DNA from: an uncultured Opitutia bacterium
GTDB taxonomy: Bacteria > Verrucomicrobiota > Verrucomicrobiia > Opitutales > Opitutaceae
Direction: 5' to 3'
Assembly: GCA_903900845.1 (NCBI GenBank)
Contig: CAIUOU010000002.1
Location: forward strand, 1 to 63,399
Length of the DNA stretch: 63,399 bases
Under the pieces are notes generated by a model. It saw only the letters and a list, made by a program, of their open reading frames with translations, ran no database searches and was not told where the DNA came from. Of the stretch, positions 20,635 to 35,363 are shown in pieces (position 1 is the stretch's first letter; every line of letters starts with the position of its first letter). The translations under genes were made by a program, and so were the position numbers.

Positions 20635-23600
20635 TCAGAAGGAGCCCTTCAGGCCGAGGGTGAAGGGCCGGCCGAAGGCGCCATGGTAGAACTCCCGCGC
20701 GTGCCGCGGGGTCTGCGACCCATAGGCGAACTCGTTCTGGATCTCGTCGGTCGCGTTACGGACATTCGCGTACAGCGACACGGTCCGCGCGAGGCGCACG
20801 TCGAGGCTGAGGTCGAGTTGCGTGCGGGGTTGCGGGTAGCGGAAGGCGTCCGGCCCCATGTCGGGGTAAGAGACGGCCTTTTGCTCGCCGCGGTAGTTCC
20901 ACTTGGCGATGACCGTCGCGCGGCGCCAGGCCACCGTGAAGCCCCAGTTGACCGATTCCGGCAGAAAGCCCGTGAAGTCGGCCAAGGCGTCGCCCTCAAG
21001 CTTCAGCTTGGTGGCGTTCACGAAGACGGTGACGTGCCGGCCCCACGCCGCGAGCGGCGCGAGGGAGTGGCGTAGATTGATCTCCGCGCCGCGGACGCGG
21101 GCGGACCCGGAGTTGAATTTGGTGGTGACGCGCCAGCCGAGATAGCGCGCGTCCAACCCGAGGGTCTCGAGGTCCGCGGCGGTCGCGTCCTTGACGAAGT
21201 TGCCGAAGAAGTCGCGCACCTCCTTGAGGAAGACCCCGCCGCTGACGACCCCGCCCTGGTCGGTGTAGTACTCGGCGGAAAGGTCGTAGTTGTCGGCGGT
21301 CCACGGCTTCAGGCCGATGTTGCTCAGGGCGATTCGGCCGCGGGTTTGGTCCGGGTCCGCGTTCAGATCGTCATCCTGATTCACGGTGGTGTTGGGAATG
21401 ATGTTGCTGAAGTTGGGCCGGCCGTAGGTGCGGGCGTAGGCGGCGCGGAGGAGGAGCCGCTCGGTCGCGTTGAAATTGAGGTGAAGACTGGGGTAGTAGC
21501 CCTGATAGGAGCGTTCGGCGCGAGCTGCCCGGGCGCGGTAAATCAGCGGCACCTCGGCCAGGGAGCCCGCGGCGCCGGCCTCCGGCTTTCGGATGCGGGC
21601 TCCCGTGGGTGTGCGGGCGAAACTGCCATTCGGGTTTCGCGCGAAGACCGCGTCGGGATCCTGGATCGGGCCGAAGCCGATGTCCGTGGTCCGCTCGAAA
21701 CGCACGCCGGTCACGGCGTTGAGCCGGTTGCGGAAGGCGCTGGCCTCCATCTGGAGATAGCCGGCGGAAGCGGTTTCCTCGATGTATTTCGACTGGAGGA
21801 GGTTGTTGCTCAGCGTGGTGCGCTCCTGCGCGAGCGTCTGGCTGAAGAGTGCCGGATTGGCGGTGAAGGCGGTCCAGACCTTGTGCGGCGAAACCCATGG
21901 CACGTGGGGCTTCGAAGCGAGGGTGGAGAACTTGCGCGTGCCGTAGTAAACCTCGGCGAGATAGGGCGTCGCGGATCGGTCGCCGTTCACGCCGTTGTAG
22001 TTGTAGGTGCGGCCGTTCAGCCGCACATCATCATTGGTCTGCACCCGGTGGAGGCCGCCGATTTGCAGGGCCGCGGGGAAAGGAAGGAAGCCGAGCCGGC
22101 GGCGGACGTCGAGGCCGCCCCCGGTGATGGTCGCGCGGATATCCGTGTTGGGCACGCCGGCTGCGGAGGTGATCGCGTAGTTCCCGAGGTTGAACGCGTC
22201 GACCGGCCGGTCGGCGTTGTCGAAAACCTCGAAGTCCGAGAGGTTCCCTTCGCGGATTCCGCGGTAGTTGAGCCGTACCGGAACGGCGAGACCGACCGCC
22301 ACGCTGTTGAAGAAGCCGCGCGCGGTGTCGCGCCTCCAGGCCTTGGAGTTCGAGCGACTGCCCGAGGCCTGAATGCGCCACGTGCCGTCATCATACCGGT
22401 AGCGGAGGTCGCCCGCGACGTTCAGCCCGTTGCTCTTCGCGAAGCTGAAGGATTGCGCCACGGATCCGCGGCCTGTCGCGCCGAGCACCTCCGACTCGGT
22501 GAAGGAAAGCGCGCGCCCTCCCGCCACGGAGGGGGTACCGACGTTCCCAAGCGTCGGGTTGAACTGGGAGTTATAGCTGTTGTGGTCGTAGTAGTTCACC
22601 GTGGCGCCCGCCGAGAGCACGGCGTGCCGGTGCGGCCGCCAGTCGAGTTTCACCGAGAGTGAGTCGCGCTCGTAGTCGCGGGAGACCTCCACGTTGCGGT
22701 GCCGCCAAAGGTAGGGGTTGGCGGGCGTCGCGCTGGTCCCGGTCGCGCTGGCCCGGTAGTCGGTGTACCAGGTGTCGGTCTCGAAGGAGGTCACCGAGTG
22801 GAGCGCCGTGATCACCAGACCGAGGTCGCGCGAGAGCGGCAGCGTGTAGTCGAGGCTGAGATCGGGGAGTAATTTGTAGCTGCGCTCATTGTCCGGCGCA
22901 GGCGTTCGCCCGAAGGCGAAGGACTGCTCGCTGGATGATATCCCGGCCCGCCAGCGCAGTTCCGCGCGACTGCGCTCGAAGGCGCTTTTCGTGACCAGGT
23001 TGATCGAGCCTGACATCGTGTCGGCGGGAGAGGAGGGCAGCGGCACCTTGGTGACCTCAACCCGCGAGATGCTGTTCACCCCCACCCGTGAGGGGGAGAA
23101 GTCGCGCTCGCCGGAGGCGTTGGCACCGGCCAGCTGCATGCCGTCGGACGAGACGATGGTCATGCCGCTGGGAAAGCCGCGGATGAGCACGCCTTCGGTC
23201 TCGAGGGCACCGTAGGCGGCGGCGACACCGGGCAGGAAGCGGAGGAAGTCGCCCACGCTCCCTCCCAGCGGATCGCCGAGGGTCTCGGTGGAAACGACGC
23301 TCTTAAGATTGGGGGAGAAGCGCTGCTCGTTGATCGCGATGGCCTGCCCGTCGGTCTCGCGGGCGGTGGCGACGCGGAAGGGGTCGAGTCGAACCGTGCC
23401 GTCGCCGGTCCCGTAGCGGGCGGCGCTCGACAGGACGAAGTCACGCTCAGCGGTGCCGCCGGGTGTCACGTTTACCGTCGCAGTCAACGGATCCAGGCCC
23501 GTGTAGAAGACCTCGAGGGTAACGGGGCCCGGTGCAACCTCGGCGAGATGGTAGGCTCCCGAGTCGTCCGTGAGGGCAAGGATCTCGGTGCCGCGGACGG

Positions 23601-23754
23601 CGACGCGGGCGCGTTGCAGGTAGGCTCCGGTGGCGGCGTTGCTGACGCGGCCGGTGATCACTCCAGCAGCCGGCGCGGCGGCCTGGGCCGGGAGGAGGCC
23701 GGCGAGCAGTCCGCAAAGAAGGCCGGCGATGGAGAGGGGGAATCGGATCAACAT
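20635..23754 (-). CDS. TonB-dependent outer membrane receptor with carboxypeptidase-regulatory-like domain
   Basis: A 1039-residue outer membrane receptor. The start is the ATG at 23754, which gives a signal peptide (about 1-25); 40 upstream codons lack one. An N-terminal CarboxypepD_reg-like domain (about 30-110, GVITGRVSNAATGAYL) is followed by a plug with EQRFSPNLKSVVSTETLGD and FLRFLPGV. This sequence style is common in Opitutaceae receptors of the TonB-Xanth-Caul type. The plug's GVLIRGFPSGMTIV motif is conserved, and the C-terminal beta-barrel ends in Phe. It likely imports an oligosaccharide or other large substrate. It follows the esterase-like gene by 41 nt on the same strand and probably shares its operon. 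Confidence 0.92.
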   Translation of the reverse strand: MLIRFPLSIAGLLCGLLAGLLPAQAAAPAAGVITGRVSNAATGAYLQRARVAVRGTEILALTDDSGAYHLAEVAPGPVTLEVFYTGLDPLTATVNVTPGGTAERDFVLSSAARYGTGDGTVRLDPFRVATARETDGQAIAINEQRFSPNLKSVVSTETLGDPLGGSVGDFLRFLPGVAAAYGALETEGVLIRGFPSGMTIVSSDGMQLAGANASGERDFSPSRVGVNSISRVEVTKVPLPSSPADTMSGSINLVTKSAFERSRAELRWRAGISSSEQSFAFGRTPAPDNERSYKLLPDLSLDYTLPLSRDLGLVITALHSVTSFETDTWYTDYRASATGTSATPANPYLWRHRNVEVSRDYERDSLSVKLDWRPHRHAVLSAGATVNYYDHNSYNSQFNPTLGNVGTPSVAGGRALSFTESEVLGATGRGSVAQSFSFAKSNGLNVAGDLRYRYDDGTWRIQASGSRSNSKAWRRDTARGFFNSVAVGLAVPVRLNYRGIREGNLSDFEVFDNADRPVDAFNLGNYAITSAAGVPNTDIRATITGGGLDVRRRLGFLPFPAALQIGGLHRVQTNDDVRLNGRTYNYNGVNGDRSATPYLAEVYYGTRKFSTLASKPHVPWVSPHKVWTAFTANPALFSQTLAQERTTLSNNLLQSKYIEETASAGYLQMEASAFRNRLNAVTGVRFERTTDIGFGPIQDPDAVFARNPNGSFARTPTGARIRKPEAGAAGSLAEVPLIYRARAARAERSYQGYYPSLHLNFNATERLLLRAAYARTYGRPNFSNIIPNTTVNQDDDLNADPDQTRGRIALSNIGLKPWTADNYDLSAEYYTDQGGVVSGGVFLKEVRDFFGNFVKDATAADLETLGLDARYLGWRVTTKFNSGSARVRGAEINLRHSLAPLAAWGRHVTVFVNATKLKLEGDALADFTGFLPESVNWGFTVAWRRATVIAKWNYRGEQKAVSYPDMGPDAFRYPQPRTQLDLSLDVRLARTVSLYANVRNATDEIQNEFAYGSQTPRHAREFYHGAFGRPFTLGLKGSF

Positions 23755-25260: not shown

Positions 25261-25980
25261 ATGCCGTTTGCGCAACCCGGCTCCTGTCGCCGACTTCCCG
25301 TGCGCGGCTGCCGCGAGGCGGCCGCCGGCGGTTTCACTTTGCTGGAGCTTCTCACCGTGATCGCGGTCATCGGCATCCTCGCCTCTTTGTCGGTGGGCGC
25401 GATCCGCGGGGCCAAGGAACGCGGGATGATCGCCCGCAGCCGCGGCGAGCTCGCCACCGTCTCGGCCGCGTTGGAGCAATTCAAGACACTTTACGGCGAT
25501 TACCCGCAGACGGGCGGCTTCGCGCAGGCGCCGGCCACGCCGACCGCTACCGGCACCGGGCCGGGGACGCAGACCGCGCAGGCGAAGCTCTTCAATTGCC
25601 TGACCGGCGTCTTCGGGGCGCGGGCCTTCAACCCCAACAATCGCGTGAGCGGCCCCAACCTGCTCGAGATCTCGCGCTTCACGGTCAACGGCACACTCAC
25701 CAACCAGTTCCTCATCCCGGTGAGCAACGCGCCCCTGCCTCCCGCCAAGGTCGAGCAGAACGCCTGCCTCGTCGACCCGTGGGGGCGCCGCTACAGCTAC
25801 TACTACCGCACCGCGAACAACGCCGCCGGCTGGCAGGCCACCGGCTATGTGCTTTATTCCGCCGGTCCGCGCGTCGCCGCCAACGGCACCCAGACCGCAC
25901 CCCTCAACCCGACCAACGGCTTGCTGCTCGCCACCCAGACCGCCGAGATGCTCGACAACATCTACGCCAGCGCCCCGTGA
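25261..25980 (+). CDS. GspG-like pseudopilin, first gene of the cassette
   Basis: A 239-residue protein with a type IV prepilin leader: cleavage expected at Gly24-Phe25, followed by TLLELLTVIAVIGILAS with Glu29 at mature position 5. The C-terminal part has the GspG hallmarks: FKTLYGDYPQTGG after the helix, then DPWGRRYSYYY and YVLYSAGPR, matching the DPWG and YxLYSxG motifs that bind calcium in major pseudopilins. The start at 25261 is chosen for leader length; the frame extends upstream without similarity. It begins a run of six co-directional genes with overlaps or gaps of 4 nt, in T2SS order. A CT-rich leader precedes the ATG. Confidence 0.88.
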   Translation: MPFAQPGSCRRLPVRGCREAAAGGFTLLELLTVIAVIGILASLSVGAIRGAKERGMIARSRGELATVSAALEQFKTLYGDYPQTGGFAQAPATPTATGTGPGTQTAQAKLFNCLTGVFGARAFNPNNRVSGPNLLEISRFTVNGTLTNQFLIPVSNAPLPPAKVEQNACLVDPWGRRYSYYYRTANNAAGWQATGYVLYSAGPRVAANGTQTAPLNPTNGLLLATQTAEMLDNIYASAP

Positions 25981-25984
25981 AGCG

Positions 25985-26746
25985 ATGAAACTCCCCCGCC
26001 GCCTTCCTTCCCGCCGCCCGCGCCGCTCCGCCGGGTTCACCCTCATCGAGTTGCTCACCGTGGTCGCCATCCTTGGCATCCTCGCCGCGATCCTCGTGCC
26101 CACCACCTCGGCCGCGCGCAACGCCGCCAAAAAGGCCAAGACCCGCGGCCAGTTCGCCCAATGGGGCGCCGCCATCGAGGCTTTCCGCCAGGAGTACGGC
26201 TATTACCCGACGTTTGAGTCGACCGGCGCCGGCATGAACAAGGTCAATGGCAACACCGTCGGCGGCACCAACCTCGCCGCCGTCCACCGCTTCTACGAGA
26301 CCCTCGTCGGTTCCCGCCGCGACGGCGCCGCCCTGCCGACCACCACCTCCGGCACGCCTCCGCCCCCGCAGGCGCAGAATTCCCGCCGCGTCCAGTTCAT
26401 CACCTTCACCGAGGCCGACGTCGTGCCCGTCGCCACCACCGACGCCTCGCTCACCTCCAAGCGGGGCCTGATCCGCGACGCCTTCGAAAACACCGACATC
26501 GCCGTGCTCGTCGACCGCAACCTCGACGGGGCGATCAAGATCGGCGGCACCGGCGGCGACAGCATCGCCACCGCCCCGACCGTGACGCCTCCCGACAACA
26601 CCGGCATCCGCCTCGCGCCGGTCACCTCGGGCACCACGCCCGACATCCCGCCGGTGGCCCAGGGAGGGCTGCGCCTTGGCGTCGCGTTCTACAGTCTGCC
26701 GCCCGGCGCGCGCACGACCTCGGATTTCATCTTCAGCTGGAAATGA
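25985..26746 (+). CDS. Second GspG-like prepilin-type protein
   Basis: A 253-residue protein with leader cleavage at Gly17-Phe18 and TLIELLTVVAILGILAA (Glu22 at mature position 5). After the helix it has FAQWGAAIEAFRQEYGYYPTFE, paralogous to the first gene, but no clear DPWG motif; a Pro-rich middle and a serine/threonine-rich C-terminal region follow. It is probably a minor or alternative pseudopilin. The ATG is 4 nt after the previous stop, and its own stop overlaps the next start by 4 nt. It has no named counterpart in the standard gsp operon. Confidence 0.85.
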   Translation: MKLPRRLPSRRPRRSAGFTLIELLTVVAILGILAAILVPTTSAARNAAKKAKTRGQFAQWGAAIEAFRQEYGYYPTFESTGAGMNKVNGNTVGGTNLAAVHRFYETLVGSRRDGAALPTTTSGTPPPPQAQNSRRVQFITFTEADVVPVATTDASLTSKRGLIRDAFENTDIAVLVDRNLDGAIKIGGTGGDSIATAPTVTPPDNTGIRLAPVTSGTTPDIPPVAQGGLRLGVAFYSLPPGARTTSDFIFSWK

Positions 26747-27501
26747 CCGGTCGGGAGAAGAGCCGCGGCGAACCGCGGGCGTGCCGGGCAAGAGCGTTCA
26801 CCCTGATCGAGCTGATGGTGGTGATCGGCCTCATCGTCGTGCTCGCCGCCGGCGTGGGCATCGCGGTCGCGGGCCGGGGAGGTGAGGGCGCCGCGCTCGC
26901 GAACGCGCAAAACATGGTTTCCAGCCTCGTCGGCCTCACCCGCGTGCAGGCGGCCCTGCACCAGACAAACACGCGGCTGCTGGTCTACGCGCAGCAACCT
27001 CCGGCCGCCACCGCCGACGCCACCAAGTACCTCCGGGCCCTGCAGGTCGCGCGGCTCGACACCCTTCCGAACGGCGCGAGCGCGTGGGTCGCGGTCGGGG
27101 ACCCGGTGCTGCTGCCCGAACCGATCTGCGTGGTGCCGCCCGCCCCGGTTCCGGTGAACCACCTCAACACGGGGGTGACGTGGCAGAACAACGCCGCCAC
27201 CGGCCCGGTCTCCACCCTCTCCACCGCCACCGGTTTCAGCTACCGCGGCCAGTCCAACCCCGCCGCCGCGCTGCAGTTCTTCGGACGCCAGGGCCAGAAC
27301 GGCCGTATCCATTTCCTGGAGTTCGCGCCCGACGGCACCGTGGTCTCCAACACCTCCGGCAATCCGACGAAGATCGCGCTGACCACCGCGGTCCTCGGCA
27401 TCAACGCCCTGCCGCGGTTCAACAACGCCAACAGCGTGCGCGGGCTGTTCGTCCGCCGCTCCGGCTCGGTTTCGCTCGTCAACTCCGCGACCGGCTTTTG
27501 A
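26743..27501 (+). CDS. GspH-like prepilin-type protein (Verru_Chthon D-like)
   Basis: A 252-residue protein with a prepilin motif RAFTLIELMVV. The residue before the cleavage site is Ala18 rather than the usual Gly, with Phe19 as mature +1 and Glu23 at +5. The segment after the helix (LVGLTRVQAALHQTNTRLLVY) resembles the GspH/FimT pattern, and the position between the G-like and I-like genes also fits H. I think it corresponds to Verru_Chthon cassette protein D. ATGA overlap with the previous gene implies coupling. Confidence 0.8.
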   Translation: MTGREKSRGEPRACRARAFTLIELMVVIGLIVVLAAGVGIAVAGRGGEGAALANAQNMVSSLVGLTRVQAALHQTNTRLLVYAQQPPAATADATKYLRALQVARLDTLPNGASAWVAVGDPVLLPEPICVVPPAPVPVNHLNTGVTWQNNAATGPVSTLSTATGFSYRGQSNPAAALQFFGRQGQNGRIHFLEFAPDGTVVSNTSGNPTKIALTTAVLGINALPRFNNANSVRGLFVRRSGSVSLVNSATGF

Positions 27502-27505
27502 GACG

Positions 27506-28165
27506 ATGCGCGCGCACCGACCGGATTCCTTCCCCCGCCGCGGCCCCGCGGGCTTCTCGCTCATCGAGGTCATCGCCGCCGTCGTCATCTTCGCCATCGG
27601 CATGATCTCCGTGCTCGGCCTTTACGGGCCGCTCACGAAGTCGGTCGCGGCGGTGAGCGATACCGACGCCGCCGCGCGGGTGGCGGACGCCGTGCGCTCC
27701 CGGCTGCGGATGCTCCCCTTCGAGCAGGCGCTCGCCCTGGTGCAGGATCCTTCCGCGGTGGCGCGCAAGGACGCCGACGGCGCCTACAATCCCAACGACG
27801 GCGCGCGCCATCCGGCGGTGATGTTCGCGCGCGCCGACGGCGAGGTCGGCATCTACGACGCGGCGCAGGGCCGGCGCGCTTGGTTCAGCTCGACCGGGGC
27901 GCGCCTGCTCGACGCCGACAAGGCCTTCGAGCTCGACCTGATCCGCAACGAGACGCTTTCACCGAAGCCGGTGGCGGACGCGGCGACGGGCGTCACGCCG
28001 GTGGAACTTCACGTGGCTTACGCGCTCCGCGTCCGCTGGCCGGCCTTCGTGCAGACGGCTCCGGGCGTCGCGGTGCAGGGCGGTCAGAACACTTCGGGCG
28101 GCCCGGTGCCGTTCGACCACGGCCGCAAGGGCGTGGTGTACTTCTCGGGGGTGATCTCGCGGTGA
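27506..28165 (+). CDS. GspI-like prepilin-type protein (Verru_Chthon B-like)
   Basis: A 219-residue protein with cleavage at Gly16-Phe17 and SLIEVIAAVVIFAIGMIS (Glu21 at +5). The helix with IEVxxAxxIFAIGM is typical of GspI minor pseudopilins. The C-terminus runs through WPAFVQTAPG to KGVVYFSGVISR. It probably corresponds to Verru_Chthon cassette protein B. It begins 4 nt after the GspH-like stop and overlaps the next gene by 4 nt (GTGA). Confidence 0.82.
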   Translation: MRAHRPDSFPRRGPAGFSLIEVIAAVVIFAIGMISVLGLYGPLTKSVAAVSDTDAAARVADAVRSRLRMLPFEQALALVQDPSAVARKDADGAYNPNDGARHPAVMFARADGEVGIYDAAQGRRAWFSSTGARLLDADKAFELDLIRNETLSPKPVADAATGVTPVELHVAYALRVRWPAFVQTAPGVAVQGGQNTSGGPVPFDHGRKGVVYFSGVISR

Positions 28166-29280
28166 GGACCCGCCCCGGCAATTCCCGCGGCGCCTCCACC
28201 CGCGGTTACACCCTGGTCGAGGTGCTCGTCGCGGCGGGGATCACCGCGCTCATCGCCGGCTTCATCGCCGCGATCGTGGCCAGCATCTCCACCTCGTGGT
28301 CGCGTTCCTCGACCCGCCTCGGCGCGGACGCGCAGGCCCGCCTGATTCTCGACCAAATCCAGCTCGATCTGCAGTCGGCGGTCTTCCGGGACGACGGCAA
28401 CACGTGGTTCGCGGCCGACATCCTCAACGCGGCCAACGGGGGAGCCACCGGCATGTGGATCGTGACCCCGCGCAACCCGAAGCCGGTCGGCGGGATTTCG
28501 TTGAACCTCACGACGCCGGGAATCGCCCAGTCGCGCTTCGGCACCGCGGGCGTATGGCTGCGTTTCCTCGCGAACGGACGTCCCGTGACCAACACGGCCG
28601 GCGCGCTCACGACCGCGTCCGCCCCGGTCGCGGTGTCCTACCAGATCATCCGCCGCTACACCGCCACCAACCCCGCCAACACCAACACCGGCTACCTGCT
28701 GCACCGCGCCGAGGTGCGCCCGGGCGCGAACGGTACCAGCTCCACCTCGCGGCCCGGCGTGCTTGAGTCCGGCTACTCCGTCACGGCGGCCGCCTACACC
28801 ACCAGTTCGTCCTCGACCAACTCGGGGGCGGTGCCCGGCGACCCGCGAAGCGTCCAGGTGCCGGGAACCGCACGTACGCTCGACATGGTTTTCGGCGACA
28901 ACGTCATCGATTTCGGCATCCGCGCCTACGTGCGCGACGCGTCGGCCCCCGGCGGGCTCCGGCTCATCTTCCCCGCCACGACCAGCGGGGCCCTCACCAA
29001 CTCACCCCAGCCGTTGCGGTCCTCGTTGCCGTCCAAGACGCCGCCGGCCGCCGCGGGTTACAACCCGCGGCTGCTCTTCCCTGATGTCGTCGACGTGATG
29101 GTGCGGATCCTCACCGACACCGGCGTCGAGGCGGTCGCCAACCTCGAGCGGGTGCAAACCCCGGCGCTCGCCGTGCCCCAGAAGTACAACAACAACGCGC
29201 AGCAATGGTGGTGGGGTGTCGCGGAGGAAAACTCCCGCGTCTATACCCGGCGCGTCGTCATCAACGCGGAACCGCTGTGA
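28162..29280 (+). CDS. GspJ-like prepilin-type protein (Verru_Chthon C-like)
   Basis: A 372-residue protein. The chosen start is GTG at 28162, overlapping the previous stop; the frame is open further upstream but only the GTG gives a short prepilin leader. Cleavage is expected at Gly15-Tyr16, with Glu20 at +5. After the helix, ARLILDQIQLDLQSAVFRDD matches the GspJ pattern (a helix then an acidic, Arg-containing segment). It is longer than typical GspJ (about 200), with an added Ser/Thr/Asn-rich part. Likely Verru_Chthon cassette protein C. The next gene overlaps by 4 nt (GTGA). Confidence 0.83.
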   Translation: MRTRPGNSRGASTRGYTLVEVLVAAGITALIAGFIAAIVASISTSWSRSSTRLGADAQARLILDQIQLDLQSAVFRDDGNTWFAADILNAANGGATGMWIVTPRNPKPVGGISLNLTTPGIAQSRFGTAGVWLRFLANGRPVTNTAGALTTASAPVAVSYQIIRRYTATNPANTNTGYLLHRAEVRPGANGTSSTSRPGVLESGYSVTAAAYTTSSSSTNSGAVPGDPRSVQVPGTARTLDMVFGDNVIDFGIRAYVRDASAPGGLRLIFPATTSGALTNSPQPLRSSLPSKTPPAAAGYNPRLLFPDVVDVMVRILTDTGVEAVANLERVQTPALAVPQKYNNNAQQWWWGVAEENSRVYTRRVVINAEPL

Positions 29281-32200
29281 TCCCTCGCGCGCCCGGCTCC
29301 GCCATCGCCCCCTCCCGCGGCCCGCGGGGAGGCTTCGCGCTGCTTTTCGTCGTCACGCTGCTCGCGTTCATCGTCCTGCTCCTCGTCGGGCTCGCCTCCT
29401 ACACCCGCATCGAGACCGCCGCCGCCGGCAACACCCAGCGCCAGGCCCAGGCTCGCGAGAACGCGCTCCTTGCCCTTAATCTCGCGGTCGCCCAGCTCCA
29501 ACGCCACGCCGGACCCGACACCCGCGTCACCGCCACCGCCGAGGCTGCGGCCACGGGCCCGACGGCGCGCTACACCGGCGTCTGGCCCGCTGACCCGGCG
29601 GAGGACGACGACAATGATCCGCTGACGCCGCTCGCCTGGCTGGCCAGCGGCAACGAGGTGCCGACCCCCGCCGGCGTACCGCAACCGCGCGCCGTCCCCC
29701 CCGGAGCGGCGATGAACGCAAACAACGCCGTCGCGCTGGTCGGAACCAACACCAGCCGCGTGAACAACGACGTGATGGCCCGCCTCGTCCCGATCACCGT
29801 GCCCGGCGCGCCCGGGTCCGGCGGGGCCTCGACGACCATCGGCCGCTACGCATGGTGGGTCGGTGATCAGGGCGTCAAGGCTCCGGTGGCGCTACCCGAC
29901 ACCTCCACCTCCGCGACGTACGCCCCCTACGACTCCGCCGATCTGCGTTCCCGGCTTCGGCAGCAGGTCACCGCGGGCGCCGGGGCCGCGACCGCGGCGG
30001 GCGCCGTGCTCTTCGAGCCGCGCGACAACAACAACGCCTCCCTCGTCGCCGGGGAGAAGATCCTGCAGCACTCGCAGGTCGCTTTCCTGCGCAACACCGG
30101 CGGGTCGCAACTCGGGCTCACGACCGCGCAGCAGTATTTCCACACGTGGTCGCCCAACAACCTCGCCGTGCTGGCCGACCCGCGGCGTGGCGGATTGAAG
30201 CGCGACCTGTCCATTGCCCCGTCCCTGCTCGGGGAGGCGTTCACGGCGTGGATGAATTACAAGGCCTACACCGAGGATCCCGCCGCGGCCGCTCCGGACA
30301 GCGGCCTGCCGCCGTCCATCTCCCCGGCCTACGGCAGCGATCCCGTCCGGCGCCGCCATGTCATGACCCCGCATGTGATGTCGGAGGGCGGCTCCCACCA
30401 GGTGGCGCCGGTGCTCAATTACTTCCTGATCACCTTCAACGTGCGGACGGTCAACGGCGGCAAGGGCGTCCAACCCCTGGAGGTGCGCGCGCGCTGGATG
30501 GTTTCGCTCTGGAACCCCTACACCTCGGCTCTGGTGCCCGAGGATTTGCGGGTCGAGGTCACCGGCCTGCCCTCCCGCATCCGCGTCAATACGGTTTCCA
30601 GCGACCCGGATCGCGCCCGCCCCCTCGGCTCCTTCTCCCTCGGCAGCGCTTTCGGGACGCCGGTGCGCATCAATCTGCCGTGGACGACCGGCGATGCGGG
30701 CGATCCCGACCGCCAGTCTTGGCTGCCCGGGCGCGTCTACACGTGGCGTTCCAAGGAGGACACCGCCAAGCCCGAGGATGTGCCGGCGGAGGGTTTCGGG
30801 TCGGAGTTTTATTCCCAGGTCCTCGATGATTCGGGGCAGGGTGTGATCCGGCCGCTTGGGCTCGCGGAGGTCGACGGGGACGAGGCGTGCCAGCTCGAGG
30901 TCGAGGGCGACCTGGAGAACCTCGGGATTGTGCTCCACGTCCTGCGGCGCGACGCCGATGGCAACGTCCAGCCGGTGGAGCTCAGCCGTCTCACGTCGCC
31001 CGCGTTCGCCCAGTACTTCCGCTCCAAGGCCCAGCTCGCGAGCGAGAACGGTTTCCAGTTCAGCTATGTTTTCCGCCTGGCCGAAAGCAAGGACACGCCC
31101 GACGCGCCGGGCACATGGCTGATGACGACCGGCCGTGATGTGCGCCGCCGCTCGATTCCTCCGGAGTGCTTCGTGATTCCGCCGCATGGCAATCCGGGCT
31201 CCGAGGAAGGATTCCCGCCGGCACCCAACGACCCGGCCGCCTTCGTCAATTACAAGACCATCCGCGACGAGGAGCGCCTGATCGACCGCGAGCACGGTTC
31301 CAACAAGTCCTACGAAAAGGACACTCCGCTGTTTGAGTTGCCGCGCGCCCCGGTGCTGTCGTTGGGCATGCTGCAGCATTTCCGCCAACCCGGCCTGCGG
31401 CCCTTCATGATCGGCAACCCGTGGGGCGCATCGGTCGATATCGCGGGTATCCGCGCCGCGGAGCTGTTCGACCGCTTCTTCCTCTCGGGATTGGTCGAGG
31501 GTGTCGCGCCCTCCAAGAACGCCGTCGGCGACCTGACTCTGCCGAATCCCCTGCATCGTACCCTGCGCAAGGCCTCGGTGGACGACCTGCGCGGTGTGCC
31601 GGAAGCGCGTTCATCGCGCTATCTGCTCCAGGCCGGCGCCTTCAACGTGAACTCGGTCAACCCCGCCTCGTGGGCCGCCGTGCTGCGGGGCGTACGGTTC
31701 CCTTCGCCGCAGACTTTCAGCTACTTGAACCTGTCGGCTTCCACCGGCACCGCGTCGGACACCCAAAAGCTCACCGTGCAGTCTTCCGACGCCCAGTTCT
31801 TCCGGTTCTCCCAGTCGGCGCAGGAAACCTACCAGCTCCCCGGCACCGACAATTTTCCGCTGGCGGCGAACCACCTCTTCCGGCGTGGCATGCGCACCTT
31901 ATCGGCGTCCCAGGTGGGCGCCTTGGCGGCGAAGGTCGTGGAACTGGTCCGGCGCAAGCACGCGGAAAGCGGCCCCTTCCGCTCGATGGAGGAGTTTATC
32001 TCCCCGGCAACGGTGTTCGCGGGCGGAACCCAGGGACTCGACCGCGGCTTGCTCGAGGCCGCGATCGAGGATGCCGGACTCAATGGTGATTTCGCGGAGT
32101 TTGGCACCTCGCCGACCGAGTTTCCGGCGGTGCAGATGAACTCCCAGTGGCTCACGCCGGCAGACATTCTCACCGCCCTCGCACCGGTGCTCTCCCCGCG

Positions 32201-32429
32201 CTCCGACACCTTCCTCGTCCGGACCTACGGCGAGGCGATCAATCCCGCCACCAGCGCGGCCGAGGGTCGCGCGTGGTGCGAGGCCCTCGTGCAGCGCGTG
32301 CCCGAGTACCTCGACGCCGTCGACGCCCCGGAGGTTTCCCCCATCGACCTGTCCAGCGAGATCAACCGTACCGGTGGCCGCCGTTTCAAGGTGATCTCGT
32401 TCCGCTGGCTCACCCGGGCCGACATCTGA
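29277..32429 (+). CDS. Giant GspK-like protein (Verru_Chthon cassette protein A)
   Basis: A 1050-residue protein. The start is GTG at 29277, overlapping the previous stop by 4 nt. The N-terminus is GGFALLFVVTLLAFIVLLLV: a prepilin-like hydrophobic helix lacking Glu at +5, as in GspK. A helix rich in Arg/Gln follows. Two segments echo GspK: GAFNVNSVNPASWAAVLRG (about 775-795), like the NLNTA element, and SGPFRSMEEFISPATV (about 900), like the helical SAM-like part. GspK is normally about 320 residues, so the middle is a large insertion. This matches what I know of Verru_Chthon cassette protein A. Predicted role: tip protein of a pseudopilus. No cognate secretin or ATPase gene is in the window. 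Confidence 0.82.
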   Translation: MIPRAPGSAIAPSRGPRGGFALLFVVTLLAFIVLLLVGLASYTRIETAAAGNTQRQAQARENALLALNLAVAQLQRHAGPDTRVTATAEAAATGPTARYTGVWPADPAEDDDNDPLTPLAWLASGNEVPTPAGVPQPRAVPPGAAMNANNAVALVGTNTSRVNNDVMARLVPITVPGAPGSGGASTTIGRYAWWVGDQGVKAPVALPDTSTSATYAPYDSADLRSRLRQQVTAGAGAATAAGAVLFEPRDNNNASLVAGEKILQHSQVAFLRNTGGSQLGLTTAQQYFHTWSPNNLAVLADPRRGGLKRDLSIAPSLLGEAFTAWMNYKAYTEDPAAAAPDSGLPPSISPAYGSDPVRRRHVMTPHVMSEGGSHQVAPVLNYFLITFNVRTVNGGKGVQPLEVRARWMVSLWNPYTSALVPEDLRVEVTGLPSRIRVNTVSSDPDRARPLGSFSLGSAFGTPVRINLPWTTGDAGDPDRQSWLPGRVYTWRSKEDTAKPEDVPAEGFGSEFYSQVLDDSGQGVIRPLGLAEVDGDEACQLEVEGDLENLGIVLHVLRRDADGNVQPVELSRLTSPAFAQYFRSKAQLASENGFQFSYVFRLAESKDTPDAPGTWLMTTGRDVRRRSIPPECFVIPPHGNPGSEEGFPPAPNDPAAFVNYKTIRDEERLIDREHGSNKSYEKDTPLFELPRAPVLSLGMLQHFRQPGLRPFMIGNPWGASVDIAGIRAAELFDRFFLSGLVEGVAPSKNAVGDLTLPNPLHRTLRKASVDDLRGVPEARSSRYLLQAGAFNVNSVNPASWAAVLRGVRFPSPQTFSYLNLSASTGTASDTQKLTVQSSDAQFFRFSQSAQETYQLPGTDNFPLAANHLFRRGMRTLSASQVGALAAKVVELVRRKHAESGPFRSMEEFISPATVFAGGTQGLDRGLLEAAIEDAGLNGDFAEFGTSPTEFPAVQMNSQWLTPADILTALAPVLSPRSDTFLVRTYGEAINPATSAAEGRAWCEALVQRVPEYLDAVDAPEVSPIDLSSEINRTGGRRFKVISFRWLTRADI

Positions 32430-32488: not shown

Positions 32489-33871
32489 GTGACCCCGCCG
32501 CCCCGCGTTCCGCCCGCGCCGCGCGTTTTCCCCCGTGGCCTCGCCGCCGTGGTCGCCGCCGGCTCGATCCTTTCCATCACCGCCATGGCCGCTGAACGCC
32601 AGCTCACTTCCGCGCCGCAAGGCCACGTGCTCACCAACACCGGCGTCTGGTCGCCCGACTCGCGCTGGATCGTCTACGACACCCGCTCCGCGGACAACGT
32701 CTTCGACGGCAACCGCGTCGAGCGGGTCGAGGTCGCGACGGGGCGGATCGAGACTCTCTACGCGGCGACCGAAGGCGCGGCCTGCGGGGTCGTGACGTGG
32801 CATCCGACGGAACCACGCGTGGTTTTCATCCACGGGCCCGCGCGCCCCACGCCTGATTGGACCTACGGCATGACCCGCCGCCGCGGGGTGATCGTCGACG
32901 CGCGCTCACCCGGCTCGGCGCGGCCGCTAGACGCCATGAACTACGCGCCGCCCTTCACCCCCGGTGCACTCCGCGGGGGCTCGCACGTCCATGTTTTCAG
33001 CCCCGACGGCGGCGCGGTGAGCTTCACGTACGAGGATGAGGTGCTCGCGCGACTCGGGCCGAGCGGTGCGCACGACCTGAATCAGCGCACGATCGGCGTC
33101 ACGCGGCTTGGCACGGGCCGGAATGTGACCGTCGCGCGGAGCCATCCGCGCAATCATGACGGTGATGGCTTCACGGTGGTGGTCGCGCGCACGGTGAACT
33201 GGCCTCGTCCCGGTTCCGACGAGATCAGCCGGGCTTTTGAGGAGTGCTGGGTGCCGCGGCCCGGCGGGCCGCGGACGCTGGCGTTTCTCGGCAACGTGAC
33301 GGCGGCCGATGGTCGCGAGCACGCGGAGGTGTTTTTGGTGGAACTGCCCGCTGATCTTAGCGTGGCGGTAGAGGGCAGAGCCCTGGAAGGCACCGAGACG
33401 CGCCGACCCGCGCCCCCATCTGGTACGGTTCAACGCCGGATCACTTTCACGGCAGGCCGGAAGTTTCCCGGGGTGGTGACCGCGCCGCGTCATTGGCTCC
33501 GGGCCTCGCCCGATGGCTCCGCGATCGCGTTTCTGATGAAGGACGACGCCGGCGAGCCCCAGCTCTGGACGACGGCCCCCGCCGGCGGCGAACCGCGGCA
33601 GGTCACGCGCAATCCGGCGGGGGTATCATCGGCGTTCAGCTGGAGTCCCGACGGACGCCGGATCGCGCACGTGATGGACGGCAGTGTGTGCGTTACCGAC
33701 GTCGCGCACGGCGTCACTTCGCGCCTCACGCCGCGGGCGGAGGGCGAGTCGGTGCCGCTGGCCCTCGCGTGCGTGTTTTCTCCGGACGGGCGCCGCGTCG
33801 CGTACCAGCGCAAAGTGCGGGGCGCCGGGGGCGTCTTCGCCCAGATCTTCACCGTTGATGCGCACCCCTGA
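32489..33871 (+). CDS. YidR-like (DUF3748) exported TolB-type propeller protein
   Basis: A 460-residue protein that closely follows the layout of E. coli YidR/DUF3748: VWSPDSRWIVYD near the N-terminus, FIHGPARPTPDW, RRRGVIVDARS, LDAMNYAPPFTPG, LRGGSHVHVFSPDGG, HPRNHDGDGF, and VQRRITFT plus PRHWLRASPDG later. The repeats suggest a TolB/WD40-like beta-propeller. The GTG at 32489 is chosen because it gives a signal peptide ending at about AMA-AER; an ATG at 32585 would lack it. The molecular function of this family is unknown. The gene overlaps the downstream sulfatase by 14 nt, so they are coupled. Confidence 0.85.
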   Translation: MTPPPRVPPAPRVFPRGLAAVVAAGSILSITAMAAERQLTSAPQGHVLTNTGVWSPDSRWIVYDTRSADNVFDGNRVERVEVATGRIETLYAATEGAACGVVTWHPTEPRVVFIHGPARPTPDWTYGMTRRRGVIVDARSPGSARPLDAMNYAPPFTPGALRGGSHVHVFSPDGGAVSFTYEDEVLARLGPSGAHDLNQRTIGVTRLGTGRNVTVARSHPRNHDGDGFTVVVARTVNWPRPGSDEISRAFEECWVPRPGGPRTLAFLGNVTAADGREHAEVFLVELPADLSVAVEGRALEGTETRRPAPPSGTVQRRITFTAGRKFPGVVTAPRHWLRASPDGSAIAFLMKDDAGEPQLWTTAPAGGEPRQVTRNPAGVSSAFSWSPDGRRIAHVMDGSVCVTDVAHGVTSRLTPRAEGESVPLALACVFSPDGRRVAYQRKVRGAGGVFAQIFTVDAHP

Positions 33872-35363
33872 TCTCTCCCTGCGACCGCGGCTGGCCGGCA
33901 GGCCGGTTCTGCTCGTCGTGCTGACCGCGATGGCGTGGTTGCCGGCGCCGGCAGTGGCCGCGGCCGCCTCGCGTCCCAACGTGCTCTTCATCGCGGCCGA
34001 CGACCTGCGCGTTGATCTAGGATGTTACGGCTCGCCCGAGGCGCTGACACCCAATCTCGACGCACTGGCTCGACGCGGGGTGCTTTTCGAGCGCGCCTAT
34101 TGCCAGCAGGCGGTTTGCAACCCGTCGCGGGCCTCGATTCTCACCGGTCGGCGCCCGGACACGCTGCGCGTGTGGGACCTGAGGCGGCATTTCCGCGAGA
34201 CGTTCCCCCAGCTCGTGACGTTGCCGCAGCATTTCAAGGCTCACGGCTACACGACGGTTGGCCTAGGCAAGCTCTTCCATAATCAGTCCGGCGCGAAGCC
34301 GCCGTTTCCGTTCAACGATCCGCCCTCTTGGTCCGAGCCGCCGGCCTTCTCCGACGGGCCCCACTGGGCCGACTGGGTGGAGGAGGACGGTGGCGCCCCC
34401 AAGGGCAAGGGCGGCGCCGTCCAGCGGCTGGATGTGCCTGATGAGGCGTATCTGGACGGTCGGATCGCGGGTGCGGCGGTGCGGCGCCTCGGGGAACTCG
34501 CGCGCGACGGGAATCCGTTTTTTCTCGGGGTGGGGTTCTGGAAGCCGCACCTGCCGTTCAACGCACCCCGCCGGTACTGGGACCTCTACGATCGCGCGCG
34601 GATTCGGCCGCCCGCGGCCGCGTCCATGCCGAAAGGCGCGCCCGCGCTGGCCGGCCACACGTGGAACGAACTGCGCGGTTACGGGGGCATGCCCAAGAAC
34701 GGGCCGCTTTCAACGGAACAGATCGCGGAGCTGCGCCACGGCTACCTCGCGTGCGTGAGTTTCCTCGACGCCCAAGTGGGGAAGGTGCTGCGCGAGCTGG
34801 CTCGCCTGGGACTGGAAGGGAACACGCTGGTGGTGTTTTGGAGCGACCATGGGTTTCACCTCGGGGAGCACGACCTCTGGGGCAAGACCGCCAACTACGA
34901 GCTAGATACCCGGGTGCCGTTGATCTTCGCCGGGCCCGGTGTGGCCGCGGGCGGCCGCGCCCTCGGTTTGGCCGAACTGCTCGACGTCTATCCCACGCTC
35001 GTCGAGGCGAGCGCGCTGCCGGCCGCGGCGGGGACCGAGGGTCGCAGTCTGCTGGCCCAGCTGCGTGACCCGGCCGCTCCGGGCAAGCGGCTGGCCGTCT
35101 CGCAGCACCCGCGACCATCCTACGGCAACCAGCCCACGCACATGGGCTACACCTTGCGGTCGGCGGAGCACCGTTACGTCGAGTGGCGCGAACTGGCCGC
35201 GGGCGCCATCGTCGCGCGCGAGTTGTACGATCACCGGTCCGACCCGGCGGAGACCGTCAACCGCATCGACGACCCGGCGCTGGCCGCCGTGGTCCGCGCC
35301 TTCGCCACCGAGGCGGCGCGGATCATCGCGAATGGCGGCGCGAGGCCTTCGCCCCGACCCTGA
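33858..35363 (+). CDS. Iduronate-2-sulfatase-like sulfatase, secreted
   Basis: A 501-residue S1 sulfatase with a signal peptide (about 1-37). Metal-binding Asp pair in FIAADDLRVDLGCYG; catalytic C-N-P-S-R with Cys87, which needs formylglycine conversion; then HGYTTVGLGKLFH, FWKPHLPF and FWSDHGFHLGEH. These segments, including KPHLPFNAP, are typical of iduronate-2-sulfatase-like enzymes (S1_7 type). The start ATG lies inside the YidR-like gene (14-nt overlap). The substrate is probably a uronic-acid-containing sulfated glycan, by family only. A formylglycine-generating enzyme is not in the window. Confidence 0.92.
   Translation: MRTPDLSLRPRLAGRPVLLVVLTAMAWLPAPAVAAAASRPNVLFIAADDLRVDLGCYGSPEALTPNLDALARRGVLFERAYCQQAVCNPSRASILTGRRPDTLRVWDLRRHFRETFPQLVTLPQHFKAHGYTTVGLGKLFHNQSGAKPPFPFNDPPSWSEPPAFSDGPHWADWVEEDGGAPKGKGGAVQRLDVPDEAYLDGRIAGAAVRRLGELARDGNPFFLGVGFWKPHLPFNAPRRYWDLYDRARIRPPAAASMPKGAPALAGHTWNELRGYGGMPKNGPLSTEQIAELRHGYLACVSFLDAQVGKVLRELARLGLEGNTLVVFWSDHGFHLGEHDLWGKTANYELDTRVPLIFAGPGVAAGGRALGLAELLDVYPTLVEASALPAAAGTEGRSLLAQLRDPAAPGKRLAVSQHPRPSYGNQPTHMGYTLRSAEHRYVEWRELAAGAIVARELYDHRSDPAETVNRIDDPALAAVVRAFATEAARIIANGGARPSPRP

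Follow-up and report, generated by a model that had tools for sequence, protein, structure and literature searches.

The contig CAIUOU010000002.1 of an uncultured Opitutia bacterium (contig C2 of the draft genome GCA_903900845.1; 4.4 Mb, 205 contigs, 96% complete) was taken whole, and its 63,399 nucleotides are hereafter referred to as the window. It carries six successive genes which, by comparison with protein families, correspond to the pseudopilin genes of the type II secretion system (T2SS), in the order G, G', H, I, J and K. Judged from the proteins that it encodes, this cassette is real and conserved, and is divergent from the T2SS and Verru_Chthon family models yet related to both. We consider it probable that the cassette is a second, motor-less pseudopilus set driven by a shared type-4-filament machine, a reading that takes the classes of the proteins from comparison and their assembly from the biology of type-4 filaments.

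The six genes lie on the plus strand: G (25261-25980; 239 amino acids, aa), G' (25985-26746; 253 aa), H (26743-27501; 252 aa), I (27506-28165; 219 aa), J (28162-29280; 372 aa) and K (29277-32429; 1050 aa), the last two with GTG starts. The start of G is ambiguous, the gene caller having favoured 25300 over 25261. Successive junctions measure +4, -4, +4, -4 and -4 nt. Prepilin-type N-termini were listed by both TIGR02532 and Pfam N_methyl for the first five genes, with J below both cut-offs (13.9 for a cut-off of 16.3, and 19.6 for 21.2, respectively) and G slightly below that of N_methyl (20.5 for 21.2); neither model matched K. The junctions and N-terminal models thus bear out the preliminary description of this DNA, which had reported six successive plus-strand prepilin-like genes with 4-nt overlaps or gaps. 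All six genes are under purifying selection: with respect to the near relative L158, dN/dS was 0.18 for G, 0.11 for G', 0.13 for H, 0.17 for I, 0.09 for J and 0.08 for K (199 codons only for K), and values of 0.29-0.43 were obtained with the more distant L107.

The conservation of the set was surveyed in 97 loci, consisting of the best 80 of 525 by K and 20 hand-picked from a survey of the order, minus four duplicates, plus the window. All six classes were present in 46 of the 97, and in all 46 they were colinear and on one strand. As the loci were chosen by K and the cassette models were trained on the same loci in which they were counted, this is not an unbiased frequency. The identity of classes, order and strand in these loci, together with the low dN/dS with respect to L158, nevertheless places the six-gene set beyond chance. 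K occurred without H, I and J in 38 loci, at least 3 kb of upstream sequence being present in 29 of these, and the other 13 loci had partial sets or were broken by contig ends. Most of the titled six-class loci (32 of 41) came from Opitutae, Opitutia, Opitutaceae or one of its genera. A cultured relative, Geminisphaera colitermitum TAV2 (L166), possesses all six classes, together with the gene S described below. The gene acs was found 52-1555 bp upstream in 24 of the 46 loci in which G, G', J and K were all present, followed behind acs by a rho-like gene in 22 and by hisF in 13 of the 24; Pfam backed all three names, with the Rho RNA-binding domain just under its cut-off. With its order repeated in 46 of the 97 loci, and acs just upstream in 24, the cassette is old and inherited. 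Relatives of K (P0006, E 1e-5) were identified in 101 of 132 genomes from the order, many of which have more than one such place, with up to six candidates scored per genome.

G carries the DPWG and LYSxG motifs of GspG, both of which the preliminary description had noted, and the mature protein probably starts at Phe25. In the NCBIfam scans (E up to 0.01; 24 aligned members each for G, H, I and J, and 38 for K), TIGR01710 (GspG) was matched by all 24 members of the G family. G' was scanned as the window protein alone, with GspG as its best match. The TIGR01710 equivalog cut-off of 88.85 bits was missed by both window proteins (G 48.8, G' 46.1). For profile comparisons, T2SS profiles were constructed from loci of the order that contain GspK, with the addition of E. 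coli K-12 and of the C105 and C185 sets, found on other contigs of the same genome (31 sequences for I, 32 for J and 33 for K, but only three each for G and H). The G family matched the three-sequence GspG profile with an hhalign E of 1.7e-21 across 121 columns, and the match persisted after removal of the 45 N-terminal residues (E 9e-10, 33 columns). Pfam T2SSG was matched at the DPW loop (21.1 vs 21 bits), and the best PDB match of the family profile was a solved GspG, the C-terminal stretch alone giving a weak match. On this evidence, G is best described as a GspG-like pseudopilin with homology extending past the N-terminal helix. G' matched GspG with E 2.8e-14 over 62 N-terminal columns, with almost no GspG signal beyond them (hhalign P 3.3); it resembles several pilins over the helix, and its top PDB match was geopilin. 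By best-matching class, G' would be a second GspG-like pseudopilin.

The best hhalign partners of the remaining families were GspI for I, GspJ for J and GspK for K (GspG for both G and G'), and H gave a near tie (54.7 with GspG, 52.3 with GspH). In the family scans, H proteins matched gspH (22/24) and Verru_Chthon D (TIGR02596; 21/24); I proteins matched Verru_Chthon B (TIGR02598; 21/24), gspI (17/24) and PilV (15/24), the last being the best-scoring model for the I of the window; and J proteins matched Verru_Chthon C (TIGR02599; 24/24), HpsC (13/24), gspJ (6/24) and gspI (6/24). None of the six window proteins reached the curated cut-offs of Gsp or Verru_Chthon families. As a control, the ordinary H, I and J of the C105 set were also below their equivalog cut-offs, the H and J of C185 had no gspH or gspJ model match above 0.001 except for a helix match, and the ordinary K proteins of C105 and C185 scored 41.5 and 59.1 against a GspK cut-off of 130. 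The C105 GspJ and C185 GspK matched their own models nearly full length, whereas the cassette proteins matched mostly over the N-terminus.

The structure predicted for J (pLDDT 78, from 24 sequences) gave chain 9a1f_S of an XcpGHIJK model as the top Foldseek match (prob 0.98, E 0.0038), with 3cfi_B of EpsI:EpsJ (0.77), the pilin TTHA1219 (0.54) and 2ret_D (0.25) further down. The Xcp and Eps chains at ranks 1, 2, 4 and 6 are, we assume from their lengths, J subunits. The predicted fold of J is closest to those of pseudopilins and agrees with a GspJ fold; both this model and the profile comparison uphold the GspJ pattern first seen in the fifth gene. Searched against PDB sequences, the profiles of J and I yielded only weak pilin-helix matches and, for J, a chance match to hexokinase, and this search was set aside.

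K proteins matched GspK (31/38) and Verru_Chthon A (29/38). The N-terminus of K matches both models and lacks Glu5, which is also missing from GspK. The predicted structure (mean pLDDT 87.7, from 38 sequences) comprises an N-terminal helix (residues 20-78), a beta-rich part (about 83-601), a helical part (about 696-971) and C-terminal strands (978-1045), and looks like a GspK plan with a large beta-rich insertion. Foldseek placed GspK (3ci0_K) at rank 4 (E 0.037, prob 0.15) in a list without a significant match. The C-terminal part scored 22.6 against the GspK profile, higher than any of 60 shuffled sequences (mean 14.1, sd 2.1) and than the reversed sequence (15.8), but the score sits at a single motif, AFNVNS, and hhalign's own probability was 1.3%. 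Of the GspK-like ends attributed to this gene in the preliminary description, the N-terminal one is supported by the model matches and the C-terminal one is weak.

The cassette had also been likened to the Verru_Chthon families, and this relationship is supported directly by the family scan of the window proteins and, for K, through intermediates by profile comparison. By best match, K pairs with A (TIGR02600), I with B, J with C and H with D. The window proteins score far under the respective cut-offs (A 27.6 vs 332.3, B 25.2 vs 51.4, C 22.6 vs 256.5 and D 26.6 vs 70 bits). Direct comparison of the K family with A gave P 92.3, while the K family matched the intermediates with P 98.3 and 83.2 at the two ends, and the intermediates matched A with P 100. 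TIGR02600 was above its cut-off in eight of the 113 genomes of the class, and 13 Verru_Chthon loci were compared, seven of which hold A above the cut-off. In these seven, classes A to D occur together, as do K, I, J and H here, in the order A-B-C-D (L226), B-C-A-D (L227, L228 and L229) or B-C-D-A (L231 and L232), L230 being broken by a contig end; unlike the cassette, they have no adjoining G pair. The H, I and J models recovered the D, B and C genes in five of the seven; the D position of L227 was best matched by the G' model, and the A position in L227, L229 and L232 was taken from the TIGR02600 match, because the K model missed A there. The orders D-B-C-A (L234 and L235, the C position of L235 being best matched by the I model) and G-G'-H-I-J-K were found only where A was below the cut-off. 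L233, L236 and L237 belong to the latter type, with two or three G-type genes followed by H, I, J and K, the gene at the H position of L237 being best matched by the G' model. Verru_Chthon A to D thereby gain a testable identity, as K, I, J and H of a pseudopilus; the literature searched, mostly without subscription papers, contained no mention of 'Verru_Chthon' or its four TIGR numbers.

Among the flanking proteins scanned, none was recognised as C, D, E, F, L or M, consistent with the preliminary description. The search of the genome placed secretins, ATPases, platforms and a single peptidase away from the cassette: one prepilin peptidase match (contig C57), ten secretion-ATPase matches, four secretins and GspF/PilC platforms. 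The C105 operon contains E, F and G to K, together with a secretin that is split over two genes (L039:6190-8635), one for a 412-aa protein with GspD N0 and Secretin_N and the other for a 388-aa protein with the secretin domain. C185 contains a G-to-K set; judging by gene order, L and M are present on both contigs and the C185 set is partnered with the secretin-E-F genes of C166. GspG exceeded its cut-off on C105 (130.2 bits) and C185 (111.8 bits). Contig C165 encodes a PilQ-like secretin, and T4P-type (type IV pilus) pilins are also present in the genome.

To trace T2SS within the order, GspK of C105 was first taken as the marker and then abandoned, because it found only itself (1/132 genomes), and the NCBIfam GspK family was used instead. 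Since none of the other 131 genomes yielded a relative of C105 GspK at E 1e-5, the C105 T2SS may have been acquired. A GspK match at E 1e-8 was obtained in 89 of the 132 genomes, in none of them over the cut-off. GspF/PilC was present in 129, and the three genomes without it were all among the 31 lacking a K relative (p 0.012). In 20 hand-picked genomes, GspG was over the cut-off in 13, and the other seven had K relatives without GspG above it. In four of the seven, from one genus (G038, G053, G082 and G103), GspG was matched only across the helix; a near full-length match under the cut-off was present in G088 and G110, making a diverged GspG possible; and G029 had a K relative and no GspG match. 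As distant K relatives occur without GspG above the cut-off, the partner machine could be something other than a T2SS. The four genomes of one genus had, in addition to K relatives, two T2SSF domain matches (one GspF/PilC). In G022, G041, G056 and G071, all from one family, GspG exceeded its cut-off and K relatives were present, but a search for GspK at E 1e-8 gave no match; in these genomes, GspK may have been replaced by K.

In relatives, K is directly followed by a further gene, hereafter referred to as S, encoding about 220-280 residues with, by eye, a signal-like start. Where visible, its ATG lies 25 nt before the end of K and spans two K codons, for Arg and Trp. In the 82 loci with S, the triplet at this site was ATG in 60, GTG in 5, CTG in 7 and another in 10; in the six loci in which S was observable but absent, including the window, it was CTG in 5 and AAT in 1, and ATG or GTG at the site was associated with S presence (Fisher p 0.0002). 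For these counts, two loci ending just past K were left out, and S was called with a model whose N-terminal part overlaps K. In the window, the site (32405..32407, plus strand) reads CTG and S is absent; no S was found elsewhere in the genome by alignment with chosen starts, a search without a positive control. An apparent 86-bit S match in the window was discarded, because the S model was made from open frames running back into K. Pfam identified no convincing family for S. In relatives, S is probably a tip partner of K. At some stand-alone K and S pairs, an endonuclease III-like gene (HhH-GPD) lies downstream, in an eight-locus cluster with a median distance of 54 bp; such genes account for seven of 63 scanned flank proteins (e.g. 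L157:6351-7034).

We suggest the following mode of action for the proposed motor-less pseudopilus set. The prepilin peptidase encoded on C57 would cleave the six cassette prepilins; I, J and K, with H, would form a tip complex initiating assembly; and G and G' would build the shaft, powered by an ATPase and a GspF/PilC platform encoded elsewhere, from a T2SS set or from T4P. The large beta-rich part of a modular K would sit at the tip and would most likely bind a polymer or an exoprotein, giving the shared machine a second specificity. In other filaments, HIJK is described as starting assembly, with K as the cap, and the HIJK set of one filament is reported to be able to promote assembly in place of that of another (PMC9934059); for this reason, it is plausible that the cassette provides a shared machine with a further tip and shaft. 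Pilins with grafted modules are known at filament tips, and HIJK interchange is reported (PMC9934059 and PMC10191384). The cassette suggests that one filament machine could gain many specificities in this way and, as a complete second tip set long kept without a motor of its own, it makes exchangeable HIJK tips testable in nature. Tentatively, we extend this to Verrucomicrobiota: the GspK cap might have become an exchangeable tip, in which a large, modular K is joined to S by a start within the K end, and full G-G'-H-I-J-K-S sets or several K and S units per genome are served by one borrowed machine.

Several observations weigh against a motor-less set on a shared machine. Deprived of the N-terminal helix, H, I and J gave no sequence signal with hhalign; the G, G', H, I, J and K identities first assigned thus hold at the level of the best-matching class, but not beyond the helix for H, I and J, nor clearly against G for H. 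Foldseek returned no PDB match with E < 0.001 for J, and neither profile search nor Foldseek returned a significant PDB match for K. The association of GspF with K rests on three genomes, and G013, from the same genus, yielded no relative of K at E 1e-5. The loss of S in this lineage could have altered or reduced the function of the cassette. An alternative pseudopilus plugged into a distant machine, as originally proposed, is favoured by the motor genes elsewhere in the genome, but a complete set with its own G-H-I-J-K and no interaction had been named as speaking against it, and the first half of this was found: two T2SS-type sets, on C105 and C185, have their own G-H-I-J-K, and the partner need not be a T2SS.

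A narrower version, in which the cassette is an alternative T2SS pseudopilus replacing GHIJK and selecting a dedicated exoprotein, is possible but doubtful. G and the arrangement of the genes follow the T2SS pattern, two T2SS-type sets are present in the genome and GspK matches are widespread in the order (89/132); prepilin-type N-termini, the GspG loop in G, the J fold and the absence of Glu5 from K are further likenesses. The cassette differs from a T2SS operon in having two G genes, a longer J, none of C, D, E, F, L and M nearby, H, I, J and K that match Gsp models over the N-terminus only, and a K with a large beta-rich part that is roughly three times as long as GspK of E. coli (1050 vs 327 aa). 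Seven of the 20 hand-picked genomes have distant K relatives (K only, not the cassette, being known there) without GspG above the cut-off, and no conserved substrate gene lies beside the cassette, the conserved neighbours being acs and rho. Somewhat less credible is a T4P minor-pilin set with K as a surface adhesin, like Streptococcus sanguinis PilB/PilC. The PilV matches of I, the large, modular K and the PilQ-like secretin and T4P-type pilins of the genome accord with it, and modular tip pilins have been described, the extra module of PilB/PilC being modelled at the filament tip (PMC9934059). The modules there are lectin and vWA-like, whereas K has no recognised domain, and Pfam and Foldseek detected no adhesive domain in it; moreover, G is most like GspG, J is most like pseudopilins, and the resemblance of G' is to several pilins over the helix, with geopilin first.

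A helper role in polysaccharide export or handling, like that of hpsA-D in filamentous cyanobacteria, is unlikely. In Nostoc, hpsA-D encode a membrane protein and pseudopilins that may work with T4P (PMC6495340), and so resemble the cassette as a pseudopilin set; elsewhere in the order, an operon induced by alginate includes a PulG-like pseudopilin gene (PMC13274419), which has 67 homologues in one genome and may or may not be of this cassette type, the proteome study having one replicate per condition. HpsC was matched by 13 of 24 J proteins, but the window J scored 18.2 against a cut-off of 200 bits; since the ordinary C105 GspJ matches equally well (19.4 bits), the match is not specific and was dropped as a link. 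No glycosyltransferase was recognised among the five flanking proteins, and there was no clear carbohydrate enrichment beside stand-alone K (63 proteins scanned, mostly from the nearest-first 119 of 277 candidates, with a few hand-added; sulfatase in two, both hand-added). It is very improbable that the cassette is decaying in this lineage: the absence of S and the rearrangement of either flank speak for it, but the six frames are intact, and decay was rejected on dN/dS (0.08-0.18 with respect to L158).

In the window, the order from 5' to 3' is rho, acs, a TonB receptor, a hydrolase and the cassette; in L158, it is rho, acs, hydrolase and cassette, without the receptor. The receptor gene (20635-23754) thus sits between acs and the hydrolase, a spot that it does not occupy in L158. 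A histidine kinase gene is another neighbour of the cassette. No sigma-70-like promoter was found at the cassette, and terminator-like sites numbered 8, for 4.6 expected. The region downstream from K (32489-35363), the place of S in relatives, is occupied by genes for a DUF3748/PD40 protein and a sulfatase.

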